A stretch of 64,000 nucleotides of DNA, from positions 19,771-83,770 of IMG/VR virus record IMGVR_UViG_3300020204_000036. One strand, written 5' to 3'. Position 1 is the stretch's first letter; each line of letters begins with the position of its first letter. A program made the position numbers and the translations under genes. Below the pieces are notes generated by a model, which made no database searches, was not told where the DNA came from, and worked only from the letters and a program-made list of their open reading frames with translations. Source of the DNA: a virus. Below, piece by piece: positions 6,001 through 63,457 of the stretch.

Positions 6001-7917
6001 CCTGACGCTACATTATTTTCGGCGTTTACAAATAACAGCCCATATTATTATAACTCGACCGATAAATCACAAAGCACGTTTAAAGCTTATAGTTCAGATG
6101 TTCTTAGTTTGGGGTATTTTACATTACCACAAGGTGTGTATTCTAATATTCAACCAAGTGTTTGGAATAATAGATTAGCATTCCAATGGACAAACGGTGT
6201 TTTAACTCCTCAAGGTAATATTGAAGGTGGTTCATTAATCGCGTCTACTGCAGTTCCTGGAACTCCATTAAACACTACAAATACAACAACAAGAGTTTAC
6301 TCACCAGCCTACCACACAACAGTAAATACAAATATTACAGTATCAAACTCAACAAATATTGTTTTCAGGTCAGATAGATTGCCAACTTCAGATATAACAG
6401 AAGTAAGTGGTAATAGTTCTTTTAGTTTATTTTTAAACGACAACTTTTTTATATACACTGTTGATGGTGGTGGAGGAGTTACTTTAGCTCCCACAACTAA
6501 TGGACCTGGTGATACAACAAACAACGCTCAAGACATTACAGGAGACACACCAAGTCAAATTTCAAATACTATTTTAGCATCATTAAACTGTGAAAATATG
6601 ACAGTATTAAAATGTTACCAAGGTGGAGGAACATCATTTTCAGTTCAAAATCCTTGTAGTGAAAACCCCAACGGTAAAAGAATGTCTGGAGGTTGTTATA
6701 AGTTTGTTGATAACCCACTGATTGTTTCAATACCAAAAGACATAACTTACTTTTTTGAATGGAAGACTAGATTTAGAATGGTATTTGCCGCATGTAGAGG
6801 AATTTTCTCTCACGTATTTCAAAACAATTGGGTTAATGGAACATTATATATGTTTTCATTAAAAAAACAAACAATTTTTAGTATTACAGGACAACCTAAA
6901 AAATATAAGTTTTGTGGAACACCTGATAGTACATTACGACCACATCAAGGACCAATATTTTACACTCGTGGAACTACCAATTCACTTTTCTATAGAAGTG
7001 CAGTATACGATGGAAATAACTTTATTGGTCAAAAACCAAGACAGGGAACATTCTTAAACCCAACATTACAAGATGCTAACTTTAAAGGGATGAATACTCG
7101 TAATCTTTTTTTTCCAACGACAATTATGGATTTGGGGCCAAGAGATGAATTCACAAAACAAATTTGTACTAACCCTAATTTCGAAGGATATTTAATTGAA
7201 ACAATCAAAAGCACATCATATAATGACAGTTCAGAAATTTTACAACTTTTTATCATATCAAGACTTATAAACTCAAACTTTTGGGGACAAGTTTTAGGTT
7301 TAGGAGATGCATCGATAAATAAAATGTTTTCGAGAAGTGAAGATAGAATAGATGGTGATGTTGCACAAATGTTTTCAATAAACTCTGAATACGGTATAGA
7401 AGAATTTGATGAAGACAACTATTCTGACAATGAACTTTATTTAGGAACGGGAGATGCACTTATGGGGATATTTTTTAGTTCTAATACGGTAAACAGACTA
7501 ACCTTGAGTCCAGGTATTCAAACCTTTACACCATCACTAACAAACTTTTTCGGGTATCCAAAAACACAAGTTGTTCCAACATATCAATGGAAATCAGATG
7601 TAACTACAACAATATTTGGTTCAGATAAAAACGATTGGTATACTAACGTATTATCAAGTGGTGGGTTTTATTCACAACCATATCAAAGATTTAGTTTCAA
7701 ACCGCCAACAACACCATATTTTAATTCTTCAACAACAGGAAGAAGAGGTTTTATATACAACCAAACAACACAAGGCTTAGCAAATCCTAATTGGCCCGCA
7801 GGAACACCTCAACAGTATGTTGTTGGTGGTCCAAATCATTTTTATTATGGATTAAATAAAGGTAAAAGTGCGATAAACAGATACATTAAATTATACATTT
7901 TAAATCAAGATGAGTAA
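3064..7917 (+). CDS. Giant baseplate/tail structural protein with internal hydrophobic segment
   Basis: A 1617-residue predicted virion protein in the tail operon, where T4 would have gp7 or gp8. Residues about 50-160 look like a carboxypeptidase-regulatory-type beta-sandwich (VAGRVVVNGGYGVPNANVSIFVP, later NESGDFMIVGVPLG). Residues about 493-560 form an unusually hydrophobic block with two or three possible membrane helices (such as FFLFSLLTILMTPTFITLII), followed by a basic stretch and a cysteine cluster (DCEACSC). The remainder is Asn/Thr/Ser-rich beta-type sequence typical of fibres and baseplates. It overlaps the next gene by 8 nt. The exact T4 counterpart is not recognisable. Structural role is likely; a membrane-inserting role for the hydrophobic block is inference. 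Confidence 0.72.
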   Translation: MTKTYRLKAQPLKDQNLRISVTQDFDFLEILSLKLRQEDVYTRFCADYGVVAGRVVVNGGYGVPNANVSIFVPLDVFDENDPIISTLYPYKRPEQKNEDGFRYNLLPYVQEYGGHMPTGTFPDVEDVLKRKEVLQIYEKYYKYTVKTNESGDFMIVGVPLGIQTAVLDLDLSNIGCFSLRPSDLIRLGRGSSEQFDGDKFKSSTDLDSLPQIVGQKKDIDVASFWGEENICNVGITRVDFDLRDLGIEITPQAVFMGSIFSTSEEDFLKSNCKPKKDSGNLCDLVTGQGRILAIRQTINYDVNGRPALEQYSLPEGGKVIDDNGTWLVNVPMNLDYVTTNEFGEQVLSTDPNVGIPTKGKYRFRIQFQNEDGMRASVLRADYLVPNVKEWGWTNANVDTPTDPAAQLKSYAFSLEWDDYGDVNTTIGQQMIQEAVNCQDKFYELHFNKVYTISNFIDRWKWGFNRSRHLGIKEITDRRCTTTTNRFPVNDGVRNFDFIFFLFSLLTILMTPTFITLIIILHVLAFLYPIIRIIINLIIRLINGVIYGICLAIRFITFGARPKGGCKREPIKPLDKTNPFKRISLPMLSYPDCEACSCTDEPLTEDATQSPFAQTANASISSQNNSSLGDTNSTVSFSTYNSILAANSNDVPAYNNGVAQAMAGYQFQNLGNNDDKLIKTPIAEIPAQGGIKFLANDITLSQSLNLANLRQRYFDGENLIQTTVRNTIPNTITVDASQPFTDSVLMLFVDSGTFNGLPPGQILTFQDVSKINDPNLTGITNANQFNTNSITGTTLFNASSLVTVPVNYINQSGTQQTANLKLKISEDGKDYKFPAGVEYFQVITGGTVTQFSGLTNTSGGLLNKYLFKKTQRFCYGLLPQQCDYVFPIKFIDDFANYEVIFLTRGTDPYTEKQNIKYDLSKLFGYNLGTGPFVEGSYYLNIPIQQNTGSGLWFNDYKTPESHLVANNTNVSLYHPSFGFTPDATLFSAFTNNSPYYYNSTDKSQSTFKAYSSDVLSLGYFTLPQGVYSNIQPSVWNNRLAFQWTNGVLTPQGNIEGGSLIASTAVPGTPLNTTNTTTRVYSPAYHTTVNTNITVSNSTNIVFRSDRLPTSDITEVSGNSSFSLFLNDNFFIYTVDGGGGVTLAPTTNGPGDTTNNAQDITGDTPSQISNTILASLNCENMTVLKCYQGGGTSFSVQNPCSENPNGKRMSGGCYKFVDNPLIVSIPKDITYFFEWKTRFRMVFAACRGIFSHVFQNNWVNGTLYMFSLKKQTIFSITGQPKKYKFCGTPDSTLRPHQGPIFYTRGTTNSLFYRSAVYDGNNFIGQKPRQGTFLNPTLQDANFKGMNTRNLFFPTTIMDLGPRDEFTKQICTNPNFEGYLIETIKSTSYNDSSEILQLFIISRLINSNFWGQVLGLGDASINKMFSRSEDRIDGDVAQMFSINSEYGIEEFDEDNYSDNELYLGTGDALMGIFFSSNTVNRLTLSPGIQTFTPSLTNFFGYPKTQVVPTYQWKSDVTTTIFGSDKNDWYTNVLSSGGFYSQPYQRFSFKPPTTPYFNSSTTGRRGFIYNQTTQGLANPNWPAGTPQQYVVGGPNHFYYGLNKGKSAINRYIKLYILNQDE

Positions 7918-20437: not shown

Positions 20438-22045
20438 ATGGCAGATATTCTTTTAGAAAGTTGTTGTTATCCTGGGTTACAATATTATACCGATGAGTCA
20501 AATTGGACGGGAGCCACTTCTGCAGTGACAACGGTTTTTTCTGTTACTTATGATTCTGTCGTAGTTTCAGGTTGTTATACAATAGTATCTGCGTTCACTT
20601 CCGGATTTACATCAACTAGCATAGTCCCTGATGGGGTATATACTCAAGTAACAGGATGCACAGACCCATTTTGTGCAACAGGACAATGTTGTTCAAATGA
20701 GTATTGTGTTCAAATTAACGATGTAAATTTTTCAGCATATAGTGGTAGTTATGTTGTGGCCGGAAGTTATAATTCCTTACCTTTTTTTACAGGTGGAACA
20801 CAACCTGGATACATTTATAAAGGACCAACAAAATGGTGTTTAGGAACTTCTGCAGGCACAGGTTGTTATTTCTTTGGGCAAGACCCAACTCTATCACCTT
20901 GTCCAAATTTATACACGGACTTGTTTTATGAAGGTCCTTGTGGAACACCACTACCAACTCCAACGCCCGTTTGTGATATATTTGATTTTGAAGTTGACGT
21001 GTTATGTGTGACACCAACTCCGACTCCAACACCAACACCAACACCAACTCCGACCCCTACACCCACACCATCACCAACACCTGATATATGTTCAGGATTT
21101 ACTGTTGATATTACGGTTAGTGGAACAACACCAACTCCTACGCCAACACCTACTCCCACCCCTACTCCAACGCCAACAATTAATTTAACGGGAGAAACGG
21201 TAACATTTACAATAGATGATGGAAACTTTGTATGTTTTAGAGTTAAAGAGTTAAGAGATTGTAATGAAAACGTAACTTATTATGTTTCGGGTTCTTTAGA
21301 TATATCAGGAACACCAATAACAACAGGTCAGACGTTCTTAGGAGTTATTAATGACCAATTGAAATGTGCAACTTACATACAAGATACAACTGCAAGTCCA
21401 AATGCTACAATTAAACTTGTTGTTTCGGCATACACAGGATGTACGGTTTGTCCAACACCAACACCTACACCAACACCTACACCAACTCCCACACCAACTC
21501 CGACACCTACACCAACTCCAACGCCTACATTCGCGCCAGGAACTTACTTTGTGTTTACATCTTGTACTACAACATCGATGATTACACAAACAGCTTATCC
21601 ACCAACTAATCTTGACCCAGGAGAAGTAATTAGAGATTATTCTGGAAATTGTTATAGTTATGTAGGATATTTTATAAATTATATTCCACCTTCAGGTTAT
21701 ATTGTGGTAAATGAAGACAGATTTACAGCGACAACAGCAACAACATACGTTGATTGTGCTGAATGTTTATTAGTCGAACCGCTAGTTGTAACATTTAATA
21801 CTTGGATTGGAAGTGGGGCATATTCGGTAAATTGCCCTGGATGCCAATTAACTAACTTTGGTCTACAAACAATATTCTATACACACCCATCGGTTAATCA
21901 AATACAAACAGGAGTGACCGTGTATAGTAATTCGTCATTGTTATATCCGTTAACAATTGACTATATCAGATACGGAAATAAAATTTATAGTGTTAATAAT
22001 AGTGGTGTTATCACTGAGTTTTGCACAGTAAACGGAGTTTGTTAA
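20438..22045 (+). CDS. Tail fibre protein with Thr-Pro repeat linkers
   Basis: 535 residues with three (TP)n tracts at about residues 191-215, 230-247 and 338-364 separating Cys-containing beta domains. Alternating Thr-Pro linkers form stiff extended rods and are classic O-glycosylation acceptors. The N-terminal domain is Cys-rich (ESCCYPGLQYY, GQCCSNEYC). No signal peptide. Two glycosyltransferase genes lie directly upstream. Likely a receptor-binding fibre or side spike with variable-length stalks; slippage in the repeated DNA would change stalk length. Confidence 0.72.
   Translation: MADILLESCCYPGLQYYTDESNWTGATSAVTTVFSVTYDSVVVSGCYTIVSAFTSGFTSTSIVPDGVYTQVTGCTDPFCATGQCCSNEYCVQINDVNFSAYSGSYVVAGSYNSLPFFTGGTQPGYIYKGPTKWCLGTSAGTGCYFFGQDPTLSPCPNLYTDLFYEGPCGTPLPTPTPVCDIFDFEVDVLCVTPTPTPTPTPTPTPTPTPTPSPTPDICSGFTVDITVSGTTPTPTPTPTPTPTPTPTINLTGETVTFTIDDGNFVCFRVKELRDCNENVTYYVSGSLDISGTPITTGQTFLGVINDQLKCATYIQDTTASPNATIKLVVSAYTGCTVCPTPTPTPTPTPTPTPTPTPTPTPTPTFAPGTYFVFTSCTTTSMITQTAYPPTNLDPGEVIRDYSGNCYSYVGYFINYIPPSGYIVVNEDRFTATTATTYVDCAECLLVEPLVVTFNTWIGSGAYSVNCPGCQLTNFGLQTIFYTHPSVNQIQTGVTVYSNSSLLYPLTIDYIRYGNKIYSVNNSGVITEFCTVNGVC
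21011..21081 (+). repeat. Thr-Pro codon repeat tract 1
   Basis: Tandem ACN-CCN hexamer repeats inside the fibre gene. Third positions vary between units, so the tract is maintained as protein sequence more than as identical DNA. Confidence 0.85.
21127..21178 (+). repeat. Thr-Pro codon repeat tract 2
   Basis: Second ACN-CCN hexamer tract in the fibre gene, about nine dipeptide units. Confidence 0.85.
21452..21529 (+). repeat. Thr-Pro codon repeat tract 3
   Basis: Third and longest ACN-CCN tract in the fibre gene, about thirteen dipeptide units. Confidence 0.85.
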
Positions 22046-35757: not shown

Positions 35758-36348
35758 ATGATAAAGAAAAAAACAGAAATGAAGTCAGAAGGAAAACAAT
35801 ATATGTTATTCATGTTTGGTGATTTTGCAGACAACGAAACCTTTGTTACTGACGTATCATATCAACTAGTCACAGTTGTGAGTTCTAAATTTATGAAGTT
35901 TAACTATGGTGAGTTTGGTATGGTTATTAATTTCAGAACAAAAGAAACTTTTGAAGACTTAAAGGAGTATATTGATATGTGTATGAATGAAGTGGTTGAA
36001 CAATACTTCTTAATGGAAGTTACTGCAAACATGGACATAAAAATGGACCAAAAATTGAAGAGAGATTTTTTAAATATAGACGGAGTAAAAAAACCAACCA
36101 AAACTAAAGGAGTAAGTAAAGATGATATATCAGAAGAAAAAAAGAAAAGAATAAGCGGAATGATGGAATTTATTTTCCCTCTAACAGAGGACATGATTAA
36201 ATTCCCATTTTACAGAGAAGAAAAAAAAGAGAAACCGACAGTAGACCAGATTTTAGATAAAATATCAGAAAAAGGAATAGAGTCATTAACTGAGGAAGAA
36301 AAACAAATATTAGACAATTATGGAAAGAGAGAAGACCGAGGAAATTAA
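35758..36348 (+). CDS. Hypothetical protein with Bacteroidota-type C-terminal motif
   Basis: 196 residues. The first 110 residues form a beta/alpha domain (YMLFMFGDFADNETFVTDVS). The C-terminal PTVDQILDKISEKGIESLTE followed by EEKQILD matches the short motif (vdxILDKIsxxGyxSLtxeEK) that ends many Bacteroidota proteins, for example rhomboid-associated ones. It overlaps the sigma-factor gene by 29 nt. A TATTTATGATAAA element contains its ATG. Role unknown; partner of sigma by position is only inference. Confidence 0.62.
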   Translation: MIKKKTEMKSEGKQYMLFMFGDFADNETFVTDVSYQLVTVVSSKFMKFNYGEFGMVINFRTKETFEDLKEYIDMCMNEVVEQYFLMEVTANMDIKMDQKLKRDFLNIDGVKKPTKTKGVSKDDISEEKKKRISGMMEFIFPLTEDMIKFPFYREEKKEKPTVDQILDKISEKGIESLTEEEKQILDNYGKREDRGN

Positions 36349-37135
36349 ATCCACAAATCCAATTAACCAAGACGAAATTCAACTGTATCTAAAAGACATC
36401 CGAAAATTAAAAGTAATGACACCTGAAAGGGAAAAGTTGCTTTCACAAAAAATTTCAGATGAAAGTTGTACAGAAAGAGAAAAAGAGTTAATCTATAAAG
36501 AACTCTTAGAAGGTAATTTACGATTTGTTATTACCGTTGCTAAACAATATCAAAATCAAGGAATTGACCTATCTGATTTAATTGCTGAGGGTAATTATGG
36601 TTTGTTAAAGGCAATTAAGAATTTTGATTGGACAAAAAATAATAGATTTATTTCATATGCCGTTTGGTGGATTAAACAATCAATTTTACAATCCTTAAAT
36701 GACAATTCAAGAACGATTAGACTTCCGGTCAATGTTGTTCAAGACATGCATAAAGAGAAAAAAGAATTGGAAAAAACAAATGGTGAACTATCCGCTAAAT
36801 TTGCATCACTTCCAAAGATTGTTGACTTAGATATGCACATTAATGAAGATGGTGATACTTTAATTGATGTTATTAAAAATGACGGAGCGTCATTACCTGA
36901 TGAAATATTTTCAACACAAGACACATTAAAACAGAAAATGAATGACATTATGTCAATGTTAGATTCAAGAGAAAAAATAATTGTTGAAGATTATTATGGT
37001 ATTTCAGGAACACCAAGAACTTTGGAAGACATCGGTTCAGATTTTGGTTTAACTAAAGAAAGAGTTCGTCAAATTAAAGAAAAGGCTCTTCGTAAACTTA
37101 GAAATGAATGTTCATATTTATTTGAATATTTATGA
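36320..37135 (+). CDS. RpoD-like sigma-70 factor
   Basis: 271 residues, matching the compact primary sigma factors of Bacteroidota, which lack region 1.1. Region 1.2 is at about 14-40 (DEIQLYLKDIRKLKVMTPER), region 2 at about 65-130 (GNLRFVITVAKQYQ, DLSDLIAEGNYGLLKAI, FISYAVWWIKQSI with the -10-recognition helix), region 3 at 138-160 (IRLPVNVVQDM) and the region 4 helix-turn-helix at 235-262 (TLEDIGSDFGLTKERVRQIK). All DNA-binding regions are present, in contrast to the minimal T4 gp55. It is the best candidate for recognising the TATTTATAWAAT elements. Confidence 0.92.
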   Translation: MEREKTEEIKSTNPINQDEIQLYLKDIRKLKVMTPEREKLLSQKISDESCTEREKELIYKELLEGNLRFVITVAKQYQNQGIDLSDLIAEGNYGLLKAIKNFDWTKNNRFISYAVWWIKQSILQSLNDNSRTIRLPVNVVQDMHKEKKELEKTNGELSAKFASLPKIVDLDMHINEDGDTLIDVIKNDGASLPDEIFSTQDTLKQKMNDIMSMLDSREKIIVEDYYGISGTPRTLEDIGSDFGLTKERVRQIKEKALRKLRNECSYLFEYL

Positions 37136-45300: not shown

Positions 45301-45922
45301 TTTTGTGTCTGTACAAATTTCTTTTACTGTGCCCTTTTTCTGTTAAAACATTATAAACCCATTTTCTTTGGGTAATAGAAACATCCCTTACAAAAATGGC
45401 ATCATTTCTTGAGTTTTGATAAAATAATTTTTCTAAAATGTCCAAAAACCTATGACATTCTTCAATTTCTTTTGTTGAAAAAATGGAAATTTCTTCATTT
45501 ACCTGAACACAAATTTTATTGTTCAAAGTAAAAATGTTTTTAAGTTCACTGTTTTTACAATAAGTGTTTAAAAATTCGTCAAAACCTATTTTAGTTTTAC
45601 TTTGATAATCATAAATTTTTTCTTCTAACTTATAATTGTTAATTTTTAAAAAAACATAATTTTCATTATCCAACTTTGCAACGTTGTTACGACCCATATC
45701 ATCAACAAAATATAAAGTATCTTGAACGTTTGTTTTATTTGTTAGAAGAGCAATATGAAATGAAGATGGGGTTGCGTTTTCTACTTTTTTATCAAAAAGT
45801 ATTTTTGTATTTTTATTTATTAAAACTTTATAAAAGTCGGTTGCTTTTTTTTCTGTGGAATAACGTTTGATAATTTTTCTTTTTTTCCTATTTTTAAAAA
45901 GTACTATTATAAAATTAGACAT
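45281..45922 (-). CDS. Hypothetical Lys-rich protein
   Basis: 213 residues, beginning [20 protein letters not shown] and containing [19 protein letters not shown] and a C-terminal [16 protein letters not shown]. Basic and without membrane segments beyond the short hydrophobic start. No family recognised. Its start codon is one base away from the divergent dnaJ start. Confidence 0.62.
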
Positions 45923-45923
45923 T

Positions 45924-46889
45924 ATGAAAAACTATTACCAAATTTTAGAGGTTGACGAAAACGCAACACAAGACGATATAAAAAAAACATATAAAAAATT
46001 AAGTAAGAAATACCATCCAGATGTAAACTCTAAGGGTGAGGAAAAATTTAAAGAATTGTCTGAAGCTTATGAAGTGTTAGGTGACGAAAGAAAAAGACAA
46101 AACTACGATACAAAAAGAAAAAACCCTTTTGGGGGTGGTGACTTTGATTTTGGGTCAATATTTGAAGAAATGATGGGTCAAGGTAGAAGAAAACCAAAAC
46201 CTGCTGATAAAATTGTTGATATTGTTGTAACGGCAGAAGAATCTTACAAGGGGGTTGAAAAAACAATCGAAGTAGATATAAATCAATCTTGTAATACTTG
46301 TAATGGGACTGGTGGAAATAAAAAAACTTGTAATAGATGTGCAGGTAGAGGATTCATCATTCAAACAGTCGGTACTGGTTTTTTTAAAACACAAATACAA
46401 GCGACCTGTACGGATTGTAAAGGTGTTGGTGAATTTTTGATAAATCCATGTCAGGTTTGTTACGGAAATGGAGTAGTATCAAACACCACAAAGTTTAACG
46501 TCCAAATTCCTAAAAATGTTGATAATGGAGATTTTATGAGAATGAAATATAGTGGTGACGAAATTCCAAAGTTTGGTAGAGGAGATTTAATTTTGAAAGT
46601 TATTTGTGTTAAAAATAATAATTTTGAAAAATCTCAAAACGATTTAATATATTATTATAAAATGAATGTTGTTGATTTTTTAACTAATAAAGAATTAGAA
46701 ATACCACATCCAGACGGAACACTTAAGATAAATTTACCTGAAAATTTTGACACAGACAAACCTCTTAGATTAATTGGTAAGGGGTATAAAATGAGTAATG
46801 GGGTAGGTAATTTATACGTTAAGTTAAGTGTTAATAATGTTATAATCACAAACGAACAAAAAGAACAAATAGAAAATATTTTAAAATAA
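45924..46889 (+). CDS. dnaJ: DnaJ-type co-chaperone
   Basis: 321 residues with a J domain at 1-65 (HPD at residues 31-33), a short Gly/Phe region ([18 protein letters not shown]) and four zinc-binding repeats in order: [32 protein letters not shown], then the C-terminal substrate-binding barrels. This is a complete type-A DnaJ that should stimulate host DnaK. ATG at 45924 is chosen because the longer frame upstream lies in the divergent gene. Phage chaperones of this kind may aid folding of the large tail or capsid proteins. Confidence 0.92.
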
Positions 46890-56194: not shown

Positions 56195-56317
56195 ATGAAA
56201 AAAAAAGAGTTAGTCAAAGAAATAAAAAATCTAATAGAAAAATATCCTAACGATACAGAATTGGGATGTGAAATTAGAAAGTTATATATAAGTCTAAAAG
56301 AAAAAAAACAAAAATGA
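56195..56317 (+). CDS. Small helical protein coupled to glutamine synthetase
   Basis: 40 residues (KKKELVKEIKNLIEKYPNDT, LGCEIRKLYISLKEKKQK) forming two amphipathic helices. Its stop overlaps the glutamine synthetase start (ATGA), which implies translational coupling. Possibly a regulator of the enzyme, by position only. Confidence 0.6.
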   Translation: MKKKELVKEIKNLIEKYPNDTELGCEIRKLYISLKEKKQK

Positions 56318-57384
56318 AAGTTACATTAGAATACGTTTGGTTAGATGGATACACGCCAGAACCAAATCTTAGAAGCAAAGTTAAAGTGGAAGAAATGGAT
56401 TTAAATTCAATAGAATTTAAATTTCCTGAATGGGGCTTTGATGGTTCATCTACAATGCAAGCAGATACTGATAACTCAGATATAATTCTTAAACCTGTTA
56501 AATATTACTCGCAAAAATCATTTCCTTTAGAAAATAGTAGAATTTATGTTTTATGTGAAGTAATGAATCCTGACGGAACACCACATGAATCAAACATGAG
56601 GTCCAAAATCGATGACCAAAGTGATGTTTGGTTTGGATTTGAACAGGAATATTTCATTAAAAACAAAAAAACAAATGAAATATTAGGACACGACACAGGT
56701 TTTAGATTAGAACCACAAGGTAAATATTATTGCGGAGTTGGTCACAATGTTGTTGGTCGTAGTTTTGCAGAAGAACATATGCGTTTATGTATGTTATATG
56801 GTATTGAAATTACTGGTATAAATGCAGAAGTTGCTCTTGGACAATGGGAATACCAAATTTTTTCAAAAGGGAGTTTGAACGCAGCTGATGATTTATGGAT
56901 GAGTAGATATTTCTTGTACAGATTGTCTGAAAACTTTAACTATGAAATAGTATTACACCCAAAACCAATTAATGGTGATTGGAATGGTTCAGGAATGCAC
57001 ACAAACTTTTCAAGTGATAGAATGAGAACATTAGGAGGTTATGAATATTTTCAATCTATTTTTAACACTTTTGGTTCTAGACACGAAGACCACATCAGAG
57101 AATATGGTTCAAGTAATGAAATGAGACTTACGGGTAAACACGAAACACAAAGTATTAATAAATATTCTTATGGTGTTGGAGATAGAGGTGCTTCCATAAG
57201 AATACCCAAAACTACTGCAGAAAATTGGAAAGGTTATTTAGAAGATAGAAGACCAGCATCAAATGCCGATTCTTACAGAGTTGTTAATCAGGTTTTAAAA
57301 TCTTTGAATGCTGCCGAAGAACTCATGGAAATCACAATGAAAATGAATTCAAAAGTTGATATAAAAAGTTTGGATGGTAAATAA
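56314..57384 (+). CDS. Glutamine synthetase, type II (GSII)
   Basis: 356 residues of the eukaryotic-type GSII family, which makes glutamine from glutamate, ammonia and ATP. Visible motifs: WGFDGSSTMQA, the metal-binding FGFEQEYF at about residue 108, PQGKYYCGVGHN, GINAEVALGQWEYQ, GSGMHTNFS, REYGSSNEMRLTGKHETQSI and DRGASIRIP...YLEDRRPAS. All main active-site blocks are present, so the enzyme should be active. The reading frame ends in TAA but continues coherently for 13 codons, which suggests a truncated or read-through C-terminus. A phage-borne GS is unusual. Confidence 0.9.
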   Translation: MKVTLEYVWLDGYTPEPNLRSKVKVEEMDLNSIEFKFPEWGFDGSSTMQADTDNSDIILKPVKYYSQKSFPLENSRIYVLCEVMNPDGTPHESNMRSKIDDQSDVWFGFEQEYFIKNKKTNEILGHDTGFRLEPQGKYYCGVGHNVVGRSFAEEHMRLCMLYGIEITGINAEVALGQWEYQIFSKGSLNAADDLWMSRYFLYRLSENFNYEIVLHPKPINGDWNGSGMHTNFSSDRMRTLGGYEYFQSIFNTFGSRHEDHIREYGSSNEMRLTGKHETQSINKYSYGVGDRGASIRIPKTTAENWKGYLEDRRPASNADSYRVVNQVLKSLNAAEELMEITMKMNSKVDIKSLDGK

Positions 57385-58905: not shown

Positions 58906-59502
58906 TGGAAATTGTGGCGGAGGAGTGCCACTGTTCAAGCAGTTCTCCGTCTGTTTGTTCCATCTTATGATTGACTTTCCTTTTTCTTCACCGTTAATCC
59001 TGTCTTCATTCATAAAAAAGTTTGCATTTTTAAAAATATCATCCCAATCCTTTCTGTCTTCTTCATTTTCAGGTTTATTAAAAGGATTTAATATTGATTT
59101 ACCTTCCTTTTCTCTTTTTTTATTTTCTAAATCCCAAAATTTTTGAATGTCTTCATCAATATCTTGTAATTGGTTACCATCATAAAATTTACCTGGTGGT
59201 ATTTTTTCACATTCACCACTGTCCCTATTAAAATATTCGTCATCGGCACAAATTTTTTCACAACCAAATCCTGATACAAATACCTCATCAGGACCACATG
59301 AACTACATACTTCCGAATAATAATCCAAACGTTGACCGTCAGGGCACGTTATACATTTGTTTTTTTTGTAAGACCAATAACAATTAGCACCGGTATCTCT
59401 TTTTTTATCACACTCTTCTTCTGTTTTTGGGTCTTCTTCTTCTAATATTATACCCATCATTTTTTTCATACGATACAATTCTGTTTCAAGTAAAAGTTTC
59501 AT
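58900..59502 (-). CDS. Putative packaged Cys-rich protein
   Basis: 200 residues on the minus strand. The N-terminus LLLETELYRMKKMMGIILEE carries the shared RxxxMMGII helix ending in I-L-E. Residues about 30-115 form a Cys-rich module with at least twelve cysteines (CITCPDGQRLDYYSEVCSSC and GCEKICADDEYFNRDSGECE), similar in spacing to EGF-like or furin-like repeats. The C-terminus is acidic and helical. A late-type element precedes it on the same strand. Cys-rich repeats are unusual for cytoplasmic proteins, so a virion or envelope location is plausible. Confidence 0.63.
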   Translation of the reverse strand: MKLLLETELYRMKKMMGIILEEEDPKTEEECDKKRDTGANCYWSYKKNKCITCPDGQRLDYYSEVCSSCGPDEVFVSGFGCEKICADDEYFNRDSGECEKIPPGKFYDGNQLQDIDEDIQKFWDLENKKREKEGKSILNPFNKPENEEDRKDWDDIFKNANFFMNEDRINGEEKGKSIIRWNKQTENCLNSGTPPPQFPS

Positions 59503-59583: not shown

Positions 59584-60567
59584 ATGAAAACTCTAATAGT
59601 AGAAATATCAAGGATTAGACAAATGATGGGTATTATTGAAAGTATAGAAGATGATAAAAAAATATCAGACGAATATATGAGTTATCTTAGAAACACATCA
59701 ATTGATGACCAATTAAAACAAACAAATGATAAGAATTATCAAGAATTAAGAACAAAAGCTGTCGAAGCAGGGGGTAGACTTGCTCAATATGAAAAAATAG
59801 AAAATGCAACATCTTTAGATGAATTAATAAATTTATTTTCAAAAGACTGGGAGTTTAAGGATTATGTAAGAAATAATTTTTGTGGTGATGAAGAAATTGA
59901 TGGAATAATAGAAGTTTTATGTATTTTCAGTGGGGGGTCTAATGAAGAGTATTTAGGAAAAGAAAGATGTAATTGGCATAGAAGTGTATTTTCTAATTTA
60001 ACAATTGACACCAATTTACTTGACTTAATACCAGGACTTAAAGAAAAGGCATTAAAATTAAAAAGAATAAGTAGTACAAATAAAATAAAATCAAATTTTG
60101 AAACTACTCGGCCAAACATTGAAAAAAACAAACAAAGTATTAGTGCTGACCAATACATATCAAAACTAAACTACAGTGATGTTGGTTACAATAATGTCGA
60201 TACTGGTGGTAGTATGAGAAAATACGCCGAAGCGATATCAAAAGAAGACCCAAATGAAGTTGAATCGTTGGTAAAAAGTTTAATTAGTAGGTTTAAAGAC
60301 TTAATGACAACTAAAGTGAATAAAGAAATTAGCCGAGCCGGCATGAGTGAAAGTTGGGCATATTGGGATGTTGGTAAACAACTTTATTTTTATAATAATC
60401 CTGAAGAAAGTAATTATAAACTTGGAAATCCTTTAACCGATGAATCGATACAACAAACTATTATAAACAGAATGATTGGTTGGGAAGTTACAAATGGTGG
60501 GAAAAAACCTAATGGGGATAAATATTCTTCTAAAGAATTAGCAAATATTGGAGAAACTTATATATGA
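59584..60567 (+). CDS. Putative packaged protein, unknown domain
   Basis: 327 residues. The N-terminus KTLIVEISRIRQMMGIIESI is almost the same helix as in the divergent neighbour (RxxxMMGII followed by an I-I-E cleavage-like site). Behind it lies a helical domain with ELRTKAVEAGGRLAQYEKIE and two cysteines, and a C-terminal ISRAGMSESWAYWDVGKQLY segment. No family recognised. Overlaps the DHH gene by ATGA, so both are made together. Confidence 0.63.
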   Translation: MKTLIVEISRIRQMMGIIESIEDDKKISDEYMSYLRNTSIDDQLKQTNDKNYQELRTKAVEAGGRLAQYEKIENATSLDELINLFSKDWEFKDYVRNNFCGDEEIDGIIEVLCIFSGGSNEEYLGKERCNWHRSVFSNLTIDTNLLDLIPGLKEKALKLKRISSTNKIKSNFETTRPNIEKNKQSISADQYISKLNYSDVGYNNVDTGGSMRKYAEAISKEDPNEVESLVKSLISRFKDLMTTKVNKEISRAGMSESWAYWDVGKQLYFYNNPEESNYKLGNPLTDESIQQTIINRMIGWEVTNGGKKPNGDKYSSKELANIGETYI

Positions 60568-62081
60568 AAATCATAATCACAGAAAATCAACTAAAGTCTC
60601 TTATTTCAGAATCAGGTATTAGAAACATAAATGATTTATTAAATAGATATAAAAAGGCTAAAATATATTTTCATCAAGATTTAGATGGTGTTGCAACGGC
60701 AATTGCAATGAAAAAATATCTAGAAAACCAAGGTTTCAAAGTTGTTGATTGTGAGGTTATCCAATATGGTGAAAAAGAATGGGCAATAAAGAGAGCAGAC
60801 ATTAGTGATGATGCTCGTGGAGAAATAATGCCAGTACTTGTAGATTTTGCACACGGGAAACCTATGTTTGAAATTCATACTGACCACCACGACAGTCAAG
60901 TTGGTGTTGAAAAAGAAACATCAACCAGTTTTAAAAGTGCTAGGTCAAATGTAGAAACAATATCACAAACAGTATCACCAAAAGAGTTATTCACCGCTAC
61001 CGATTTATCTATTATTTCAATGGTGGATTCAGCTAACTATGCAACACATGACATAACCCCCAAAATGGTAATGAATTTTATATATAAATTTGATGAAAGT
61101 AAAACAAGTCGAGATAATATGATTATGTTGGGTTTAGTAACTAACAAATTACTGTTAGCTTATAAAAACTATCCGAATTTTATGGAAGATTTGGTTATGA
61201 GAGCCGAACCTTCTATAAAAAATATCTACAATATCATAAAAGAATTTGCTATAGAGAGAAACTATGTAGATATCGATACTATGATTAAAAATCAAGAAAA
61301 ATACTTAATAGATAGAAAAGAAGGGACTAAAAGTAATTCTGGTGTTGAAGTGGTTGGTAATATTTTAACACAGATGGATTTGGGGTCCATGAAAAAAGGT
61401 TCATATGATAGATATGTTCCATTTGAACTATATCCCGATGCAGACTTTTTGGTCACAGGTTTAGGAGGTCAAGTAGGTATGGTTCAAGCTTCTTGTAATC
61501 CATATAAAAAAGAGAGAGCGTTAAAAGGAATTGATTTAGGTAAAATTAAAGATGAAGTTTTAGATTTTTTCAAACCTGAACTAGAAAATGAAATATTGAC
61601 ATATGAAATAATTAAAAAAATTGCAGAAAAAAAGGCAACAGATGAATCTGTTGGTTTTACAACAAGAGATTTTGAAGCCATTTATGGTGGGTTACCGTCA
61701 TTTGAAAATAACTCAATAAATGCTTACGATTTTTTAAAGGCAAACTCAGGAGGACACAAATGTATTACAAATGTATCAGGAATTAATTATGTATATAGTG
61801 GTTACGATAAACCATATACAAAAGATTTACCTGAAGAATTGTTACCAATTGCAAATTATGATGGTGATAATAATTTTGTTAATGATATTAAAAAACAACT
61901 TTTAAGGTTTAGAAGATTATCTGAAAAACAGGTAGAAGCGGCCATAAGACAATTAAAAAAAGAAAACAAATTTAATTCAGATTACGTAGAAACTTCAAGT
62001 TCAAGAACCAGTAGAGATTTGGTAATTGATATGAGAAATAAGTTTATTAATATTCTACAAAGAAAAATTGATAAAAATTAA
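60564..62081 (+). CDS. DHH-family phosphoesterase, putatively packaged
   Basis: 505 residues. After an N-terminal helix KIIITENQLKSLISESG (ending I-S-E) the DHH domain begins: FHQDLDGVATAIA with His37, Asp39 and Asp41, VLVDFAHG at about residue 92, and THTDHHD-type DHH at residues 107-109. These are the metal-binding motifs of RecJ/NrnA/polyphosphatase-type enzymes. The C-terminal half (FLVTGLGGQVGMVQASCNPY, then NSGGHKCITNVSG) resembles a DHHA1-like domain with GGH. Probably a nuclease or nanoRNase-like enzyme; delivery with the DNA is inferred from the N-terminus. Confidence 0.78.
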   Translation: MKIIITENQLKSLISESGIRNINDLLNRYKKAKIYFHQDLDGVATAIAMKKYLENQGFKVVDCEVIQYGEKEWAIKRADISDDARGEIMPVLVDFAHGKPMFEIHTDHHDSQVGVEKETSTSFKSARSNVETISQTVSPKELFTATDLSIISMVDSANYATHDITPKMVMNFIYKFDESKTSRDNMIMLGLVTNKLLLAYKNYPNFMEDLVMRAEPSIKNIYNIIKEFAIERNYVDIDTMIKNQEKYLIDRKEGTKSNSGVEVVGNILTQMDLGSMKKGSYDRYVPFELYPDADFLVTGLGGQVGMVQASCNPYKKERALKGIDLGKIKDEVLDFFKPELENEILTYEIIKKIAEKKATDESVGFTTRDFEAIYGGLPSFENNSINAYDFLKANSGGHKCITNVSGINYVYSGYDKPYTKDLPEELLPIANYDGDNNFVNDIKKQLLRFRRLSEKQVEAAIRQLKKENKFNSDYVETSSSRTSRDLVIDMRNKFINILQRKIDKN

Positions 62082-62400: not shown

Positions 62401-62431
62401 TTGTTTTTTTAAAATAAAAGACATAACTTTG
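62401..62431 (+). promoter_or_regulatory. Host-like promoter TTG-N20-TAACTTTG
   Basis: TTG at 62401 and TAACTTTG at 62424-62431, spaced by exactly 20 nt. It points into the 1 kb structured RNA. Confidence 0.75.
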
Positions 62432-62435
62432 TAAA

Positions 62436-63457
62436 ACATTTGAAACCTGAAGGAGATGAAAGATACTCGGTATTCAAATGGTAAGTTCTTTGAAATTCTA
62501 ACGAACAAATTGTTCAAACAAAATTTGAAATAAAAGATTAACCCCCTTTTCTTTAAAATTTGTGAAACAAAGAGTTCAATGGGCCGTGTATGGTCCACTA
62601 AAATAAACCATGAAAGTGGGATAAAGTAAGTCAGAAGTGTAACTGATTTGCGTCTTGATTGTCTTCGGACAATCGAGGTCGAGTACACAAGCGGGAAACC
62701 GTTTAACCTTGAGTACTGAGGGCAACGCTGTAAGAAAAGTGGTTAAATGATTGGGCGATGTGGGTCGTCTGATTGAGGTGGGAACACCAATAGGAATAAC
62801 CCGTAGGAATATTTGCAAAAAATGAAGTTATCCAATTTCATTATTGCGTTTTCCAATATTAAAGGATACTTAAAACTGAAAGGTATGTTAAAGTACGAGT
62901 GGTGTCGTTATTAACCTTAATGAGTCTTTACCAAAAGATTTGTTTCGAAGTAGTCTTGAAATATGGAAATGGGGACATTTCACGGAGTAGTTGAGTATTG
63001 ACTTGTTCAAAAGATAGGTCAGCTCGGGTGGCGGACCACTACTTCGACAATCCACAACACAAAAACTTATTATTATAATTAATAACCATTAAGAATAAAT
63101 TAAGGAAAAGTGTCCGTCAGGTTTGAATGAAAGGTGACTACATAGTAATGAGCCGTTCATTGCACACGAAGGTCCCAAGCTGACGTGTAATTATCCGAAA
63201 AACCTTTAGTCCCGCAAGGACGAATTGGGGAGGCATCCTCAAAAAGAGTCAAGTAAGATGAGAGTAATTCAAACCTCAAGGAATGGTAAACCTAAAAGAC
63301 CGTCACTGAGAAATACTTCTCAAAAGGAAGTGGATAAGAGTAGAAACGATAATGACTCTAAAGGTTCTCACAACAAACGTGTAATCTCAGCGTTTTTTTT
63401 AATGGAGCCCACCGGTAAAAAATTTGATGGATAAGGAAAAACTTATCCATTTTTTTG
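62436..63457 (+). ncRNA. Giant structured noncoding RNA (about 1 kb)
   Basis: About 1,020 nt between a host-like promoter and a strong terminator, with no convincing ORF on either strand and clearly higher G+C than the coding DNA around it. Local hairpins with stable tetraloops are seen: a 10-bp stem with TTCG at 62654-62677, GGTG-GGAA-CACC at 62777-62788 and GTCC-CGCAA-GGAC at about 63209-63221. Longer-range pairs include TTTAACC/GGTTAAA (about 62702-62747) and CGAAGTAGT/ACTACTTCG (62946-62954 with 63038-63046). Size and style resemble ornate large phage RNAs such as GOLLD or ROOL, but I cannot assign it to either. No RNase P, tmRNA or intron core was recognised. Confidence 0.75.
63427..63457 (+). 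terminator. Intrinsic terminator of the giant RNA
   Basis: A 9-bp stem (63427-63435 with 63442-63450), GAAAAA loop and seven T residues. Confidence 0.9.

Follow-up and report, generated by a model that had tools for sequence, protein, structure and literature searches.

How a phage might make a kilobase of strongly folded, untranslated RNA is the question raised by the last part of a 64,000-nucleotide stretch of viral DNA (the window), which comprises bases 19771-83770 of the 83,770-bp IMG/VR record IMGVR_UViG_3300020204_000036. The region 62580-63393 of this window, near the record's end, is a genuine GOLLD RNA. To our knowledge, no function is known for GOLLD cages, and the high-level synthesis of untranslated RNA by phages is unexplained. 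Membership in the GOLLD family is not what is new here, as the family is known; what is new is the leader. Based on the comparisons given below, the RNA probably comes from a transcription unit of its own, which is built like a miniature ribosomal RNA (rRNA) operon with a boxA antitermination leader and whose product would form a cage. The parts of the unit are as follows.

62401-62431, + strand: Bacteroidota-type promoter (TTG at 62401-62403, 20 nucleotides (nt), TAACTTTG at 62424-62431)
62437-62480, + strand: leader hairpin CAUUUGAA...UUCAAAUG, at the position that boxB holds in rRNA leaders; predicted transcript start at ~62437
62485-62495, + strand: boxA-like ribosomal antitermination site GUUCUUUGAAA (also written GTTCTTTGAAA), from sequence comparison
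62496-62579, + strand: exchangeable leader segment from boxA to the conserved RNA, with two unrelated versions among relatives and absent in others
62580-62982, + strand: GOLLD 5' domain of a subclass common to at least 53 viral loci, outside the Rfam model; helices 1-20 of the consensus
62983-63393, + strand: GOLLD 3' domain, full-length match to RF02032
63426-63457, + strand: intrinsic terminator GATGGATAAG-GAAAAA-CTTATCCATT, whose stem of 10 pairs (63426-63451) leads into a T run

The whole window was scanned against all 4,227 Rfam families. GOLLD (RF02032) matches 62983-63393 on the + strand over positions 1-416 of its 416-position model with 315.8 bits (E=1.4e-89), about twice the curated cut-off (gathering score 150 bits), and it is the sole family above cut-off in the window. 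ROOL, OLE, RNase P and group I and II introns, which a preliminary description of this DNA had named together with GOLLD as models to be searched, gave no match above cut-off in the window, and a SCARNA7 match (E 0.039) is far below cut-off and was put down to chance. The GOLLD core is 815 nt long and includes a 5' domain of 403 nt, which is homologous in at least 53 loci and different in other GOLLDs. The length above 800 nt, the separate and less conserved 5' domain and the phage origin near tRNA (transfer RNA) genes are those of the GOLLD class. The end-to-end match, together with the covariation in relatives described below, bears out the preliminary view of a member of the GOLLD/ROOL type of giant RNA. 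The span then proposed (62401-63457) holds for an RNA of ~1,020 nt, but its coordinates start at the promoter, and the transcript is predicted to run from ~62437 to ~63457. The terminator that had been called textbook is present, and the G+C content is raised as claimed: it is 37.6% in 62437-63394 versus 30.7% in the window, and 21 of 620 windows of equal length are as rich.

GOLLD loci were gathered from viral contigs by searching for a sequence pattern (119 stretches among the matches listed). The leaders of the relatives have a common anatomy, in which a TAnnTTTG promoter is followed by 16-62 nt (145 in one case), usually with a hairpin, then by GTTCTTTGA, an exchangeable segment or none, and the core. 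In the window the promoter proposed earlier, TTG-N20-TAACTTTG, is found exactly. Its motif alone is unremarkable, since TTTG-N16-22-TAnnTTTG occurs 18 times in the contig versus 19 for a reversed control; the promoter is believable because the TAnnTTTG box keeps its place upstream of nearly all of the relatives' GOLLDs, usually with TTGACA or TTTG at -33. The leader hairpin is shorter in the relatives, and its sequence changes while the pairing is kept (CGG/CCG, CAGG/CCUG, CAGU/ACUG and UAGU/ACUA). The 9-mer of the leader box is present in 31 of 32 non-redundant GOLLD leaders, compared with 0.14 expected from dinucleotide shuffles, and the exception reads GTTCTTTGT. Among the matches listed, 53 of 57 distinct leaders carry it, the remainder being L082 (GTTCTTTGT), L109 (GTTCTTTAA), L067 and one Acinetobacter phage. 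The box is likewise present in at least 14 GOLLDs from phages of the same kind whose 5' domain differs (e.g., L004, L027, L075 and L104).

The same box is found in the rRNA operons of the hosts. From 119 16S rRNA loci, nearly all of Bacteroidota, 103 had enough upstream sequence, and GTTC[AT]TTGA was found in 60 of these leaders (26 with the exact GTTCTTTGA), located 60-240 nt ahead of the 16S pattern; for GTTC[AT]TTGA the expectation is 0.002 per leader, as calculated from the rate 0.6-1.5 kb upstream of 16S. In E. coli, the rrn boxA is located at -147 to -133 of 16S, after boxB and before boxC, and by itself it is enough for the antitermination complex to form (PMC10250234). The boxA consensus in gamma-proteobacteria is GYTCTTTAANA (PMC5725501), and in Legionella boxA GTTCTTTAAAA raises long-array and precursor-crRNA (CRISPR RNA) transcription ~10-fold (PMC7862264). 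The phage and host box is one base from this experimentally used GTTCTTTAAAA. As the 16S-leader box is identical to the phage box, has the same place as E. coli boxA and is near the published boxA forms, the phage box can be read as boxA; it matches host 16S leaders and lies after a hairpin, between a promoter and an untranslated RNA. By sequence comparison, the assignment of the phage leader box as boxA is strongly supported, and Nus factors would be expected to bind at the GOLLD leader. A search of the open literature found no paper linking GOLLD with boxA, with Harris and Breaker 2018, Stringer 2020, Arnvig 2008 and Weinberg 2009 outside its coverage.

The box is also used before other stable RNAs. 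When GOLLD leaders are set aside, both strands of 2.19 Mb of viral loci hold 37 copies of GTTCTTTGA, and 8 of these copies are within 250 nt upstream of a tRNA versus 0.7 expected; many of the GOLLD, tRNA and transfer-messenger RNA (tmRNA) loci are related, so that such counts are not independent events. Eighteen non-GOLLD copies are located just behind a TAnnTTTG promoter, nine of them before a tmRNA, seven before a tRNA or tRNA array, one before a tRNA-like array and one before another transcript. The tmRNAs in these loci were confirmed by Rfam, and their leaders also use GTTATTTGA, GTTCATTGA and GTTCTTTAA, with GTTCATTGA being a common host 16S form. A tmRNA was found in 24 of the 37 GOLLD loci that have at least 2 kb on both sides, 0.1 to 3.4 kb off and mostly convergent. 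We conclude from these comparisons that these jumbo-type phages probably rely on the ribosomal antitermination (boxA/Nus) of their hosts for producing untranslated RNAs, including GOLLD.

Two other explanations of the box were weighed. The first is that it is a different promoter-proximal signal, for example a processing site or the site of a phage-specific regulator for stable RNAs, and the fact that it marks stable RNA units generally would fit a shared maturation signal. We consider this unlikely, as its sequence and position equal those of the host 16S leader box and it is so close to the boxA of PMC7862264, while the phage variants GTTCATTGA and GTTCTTTAA track the host-leader and published boxA forms and the order of hairpin and then box is as in rrn leaders (PMC10250234). 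The second is that the RNA is an ordinary GOLLD in which GUUCUUUGAAA is a structural piece, such as the 5' strand of a helix or a contact, rather than an antitermination site. The box is always at the RNA's 5' end, and in six relatives it lies only 15-20 nt before the core; yet no conserved complement was seen by eye in the core, and the box also precedes GOLLDs with different 5' domains, tmRNAs, tRNAs and host 16S, which share nothing else with GOLLD, so that this explanation is improbable.

Some further candidates and features of the leaders were noted. A possible 25-codon leader peptide (ATG at ~62456) was rejected by eye, as its frame is broken in L084, L119 and L018. Copies of GTTCTTTGA at -902 of some prophage GOLLDs (L005 and L120) were discounted too, as they resemble coding sequence before the RNA. 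A polypyrimidine segment of the leader at ~62542-62556 bears a resemblance, and a resemblance only, to the anti-Shine-Dalgarno end of 16S. In L100, at ~5595 on the - strand, a promoter, a hairpin and GTTCTTTGA are followed by a transcript ~500 nt upstream of the GOLLD, possibly another noncoding RNA. Phage tmRNAs near GOLLD are located, for example, at 5276-5693 in L002, 5916-6334 in L008, 5121-5528 in L093 and 5495-5910 in L117, with ~20 more loci; they are often convergent with the GOLLD, with 118-149 nt between, and their leaders have the same boxA-like box. In a 634-kb phage (LR745206, L337) there are two boxA copies, at 1445 and 2004, of which one lies before a tRNA-like gene and the other between a tRNA and the GOLLD, a layout that resembles rRNA operons with a box in the leader and another in the spacer. 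In L081, tandem tRNA-like units with an unusual body (~463-1050), missed by ARAGORN, lie behind a boxA.

The fold of the RNA is conserved among the relatives. An alignment of 32 non-redundant RNAs sharing the 5' domain (885 columns) gave a consensus structure of 197 pairs, in which 98.1% of the cells are paired versus 85.0 in shuffles. Changes on both sides are seen at 134 of the 197 pairs, compared with 74.2 (sd 4.0) in shuffles that ignore the relatedness of the 32 RNAs, and none of 500 shuffles reaches 134; the covariation score is 0.459 versus 0.199. When the partners are slid by one column the pairing falls to 42-45%, although this control is flattered by the use of one alignment both for deriving the structure and for counting its pairs. 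Compensatory changes hold in both domains, in nearly all of helices 1-20 and in all of helices 21-33. Through helix 22 (columns 504-514 with 595-604), which the Rfam consensus line does not show as paired, the strand following the first hairpin is connected to the segment that follows the linker. Helix 4 (long-range, 5' columns 139-146 with the universal 3' motif GUGUAAUCUC) is doubtful, as it has zero compensatory changes and the 3' motif is common to other GOLLD 5' classes. Region 62437-62985 alone folds better than 100 of 100 dinucleotide shuffles (z = -4.5), and the UUCG- and GNRA-type hairpins noticed earlier are present as CUUCGG at ~62661-62668 and as GAAA and GGAA loops.

These data also bear on the two weakest alternatives. 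The preliminary description had left as an option a new class of structured RNA without relation to GOLLD. Such a class could claim the first 403 nt of the core, which lie outside the Rfam model, but it is refuted by the full-length GOLLD match of the 3' domain, and a variable 5' domain is a published property of GOLLD (PMC12286853), which makes the option practically out of the question. A decayed or real coding region could claim a 69-codon sense open reading frame (63225-63434), the only one in that direction inside the RNA, and antisense frames of up to 102 codons, but we give it virtually no credence because the relatives show free indels of any length and compensatory base changes at the pairs counted above; the early statement that no believable reading frame exists is thus upheld.

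The features that may be related to cage assembly lie in the 3' domain, where the published loops of GOLLD env-38 were mapped onto the Rfam layout by order and the loop numbering is our own.

63066-63101, + strand: variable A+U-rich linker (gapped alignment columns), inside the cage in the solved GOLLD (PMC12286853)
63104-63105, + strand: GG pairing with the hairpin loop at 63175-63176 (columns 591 and 662 switch together)
63170-63181, + strand: hairpin loop, putative L20 (AGGUCCCAAGCU), which in the cage kisses the neighbouring chain (bridge B7, PMC12286853)
63210-63240, + strand: putative loops L21a (CCCGCAAGG) and L21b (GAGGCAUC), half-shell contacts B8 and B9 (PMC12286853)

The cryo-EM (electron cryomicroscopy) structure of env-38 is a closed 14-mer in which the 5' domains form the caps and the 3' domains the rings, with the variable linker inside (PMC12286853). 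In our alignment, the loop taken as L20 covaries with the AAGG/AAGC segment that directly follows the linker on its 3' side (28 GG/CCC and 4 GC/CGC), and for that loop column no pairing scores higher in corrected covariation than 591/662. L21a keeps its palindromic GC (63214-63215) in 31 of 32 RNAs, with a gap in the other, and L21b its GGC in 32 of 32. No tRNA was found in the linker by ARAGORN. The cage is built through contacts of the sort that the kept loops and the covarying L20 contact represent, and by analogy this RNA would assemble into one.

A mechanism that fits these data starts with a strong host-type promoter, which would begin the GOLLD unit, followed by the boxB-like hairpin and then boxA. 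At boxA the antitermination complex of host Nus factors would be loaded onto RNA polymerase. Most likely the polymerase can then transcribe a kilobase of RNA that is untranslated and strongly folded without being stopped by Rho, and the RNA is helped to fold during its synthesis. The result would be a structured RNA of ~815 nt, ended by the intrinsic terminator, which could self-assemble into a homo-oligomeric cage like the 14-mer of the other GOLLD, with the variable linker inside. The role proposed as most likely for such a cage is in the phage takeover of translation, because GOLLD shares its boxA signal and its neighbourhood with tRNA and tmRNA units.

Several points weigh against this picture. 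In L067 the box is lost through a short deletion, and ~40% of the Bacteroidota 16S leaders are without the exact GTTC[AT]TTGA, many of them with looser forms. The 16S-leader box itself is a predicted site, taken as the boxA of Bacteroidota from its position and sequence. The Acinetobacter phage GOLLDs are located in tRNA arrays and have no boxA, the Lactobacillales prophage GOLLDs have no clear boxA and the large noncoding RNA of ICP1 has no boxA. As the Acinetobacter and Lactobacillales GOLLDs are without a clear boxA, the boxA leader belongs to the phage lineage and its host and not to GOLLD as such. The role of the cage in translation is read from the neighbourhood only and stays rather doubtful. 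The most abundant noncoding RNA of ICP1 (L457, NC_015157, ~80.1-81.1 kb, - strand) has no Rfam match and is a separate, unclassified giant phage RNA.

If the ribosomal antitermination leader is true, it explains the high-level synthesis of a kilobase of untranslated RNA. The leader would also tie GOLLD to the tRNA and tmRNA genes that these phages carry, and its 11-base box would be a direct handle on cage yield and phage fitness. It is conceivable, though tentative, that large Bacteroidota phages run a stable-RNA programme in which GOLLD, tmRNA and tRNA arrays each bear a copy of the ribosomal boxA leader of the host. The phages would thereby draw on the machinery that transcribes and folds rRNA to make untranslated RNAs of their own, and the cage, the tmRNA and the tRNAs would jointly control translation in the infected cell.

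Related records reach 214-304 kb, so that a jumbo-type phage is the probable source of the window. A Bacteroidota phage, as was first thought, is indicated by the Bacteroidota-type promoters, by the leader box, which is that of Bacteroidota rRNA operons, and by the nearest isolates by baseplate protein, the Flavobacterium phages immuto (29% identity). The near-identical locus L028 (99.8% over the 5' domain) shows a tRNA-Arg ~2.5 kb downstream of the GOLLD, beyond the end of the window's contig. In relatives reached via the baseplate wedge gene, GOLLD is found 60-69 kb past the baseplate gene in 5 of the 5 that are long enough (G003, G004, G007, G011 and G012); the other 15 records are without GOLLD, and in the longer ones, which were checked, the contig ends before the place. 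The claim that the RNA must be useful thus holds in part: it is kept in every relative that reaches the place, but more distant relatives have no GOLLD right after the neighbouring 505-codon gene, and PMC7567579, citing Harris and Breaker 2018, describes a GOLLD as dispensable in one Lactobacillus prophage.

This neighbouring gene (60564-62081, 505 residues) lies just before GOLLD and adjoins it in the closest relatives; the beginning of its product looks like that of a DHH-type phosphoesterase (DLDGVATA, DHHDS), and it has no Pfam or PHROGs match. Pfam matches in the window include glutamine synthetase (56314-57384), DnaJ (45867-46889) and a sigma-70-type factor (36320-37135), and 20438-22045 encodes a protein that is putatively structural and contains long TP repeats (TPTPTPTP). 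Many otherwise unrelated proteins share a similar amphipathic N-terminal segment of ~20 residues (MKTLIVEISRIRQMMG, MKIIITENQLKSLISES, MKRIIRLTESDLARIVRRVIKE), with genes at 59502(-), 59584, 60564, 39758, 41323, 41925, 48931 and 54189 of the window and at 6609, 6898, 7842 and 9733(-) of L028. The segment is similar to the leader that targets T4 internal head proteins to the capsid, and these window and L028 proteins may be a packaged protein set.

Compared with known systems, the RNA resembles ROOL in being a giant phage RNA, and ROOL forms a cage; its sequence and structure are unrelated to ROOL, and the window has no Rfam ROOL match. With GOLLD env-38 (PMC12286853) it shares the 3' domain, the variable linker, the half-shell loop motifs, the phage origin and the tRNA genes near it in relatives, but it differs in having its own promoter, boxB-like hairpin and boxA leader, and in that no tRNA lies within the window. 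As in the leader of an rRNA operon (boxB-boxA-boxC), a hairpin and then boxA stand between the promoter and a long structured RNA, and many Bacteroidota 16S leaders have the identical box; in contrast to such an operon, this is a phage gene without 16S, with an intrinsic terminator ~1 kb downstream, and a boxC and a leader-trailer helix were not identified. A parallel in use is the boxA before CRISPR arrays (Stringer et al. 2020, as cited in PMC7862264), where boxA is likewise reused before a long untranslated RNA. The phage case differs in that the box takes its Bacteroidota form and precedes GOLLD, tmRNA and tRNA, which would extend boxA from rRNA and CRISPR arrays to the giant RNAs of phages.
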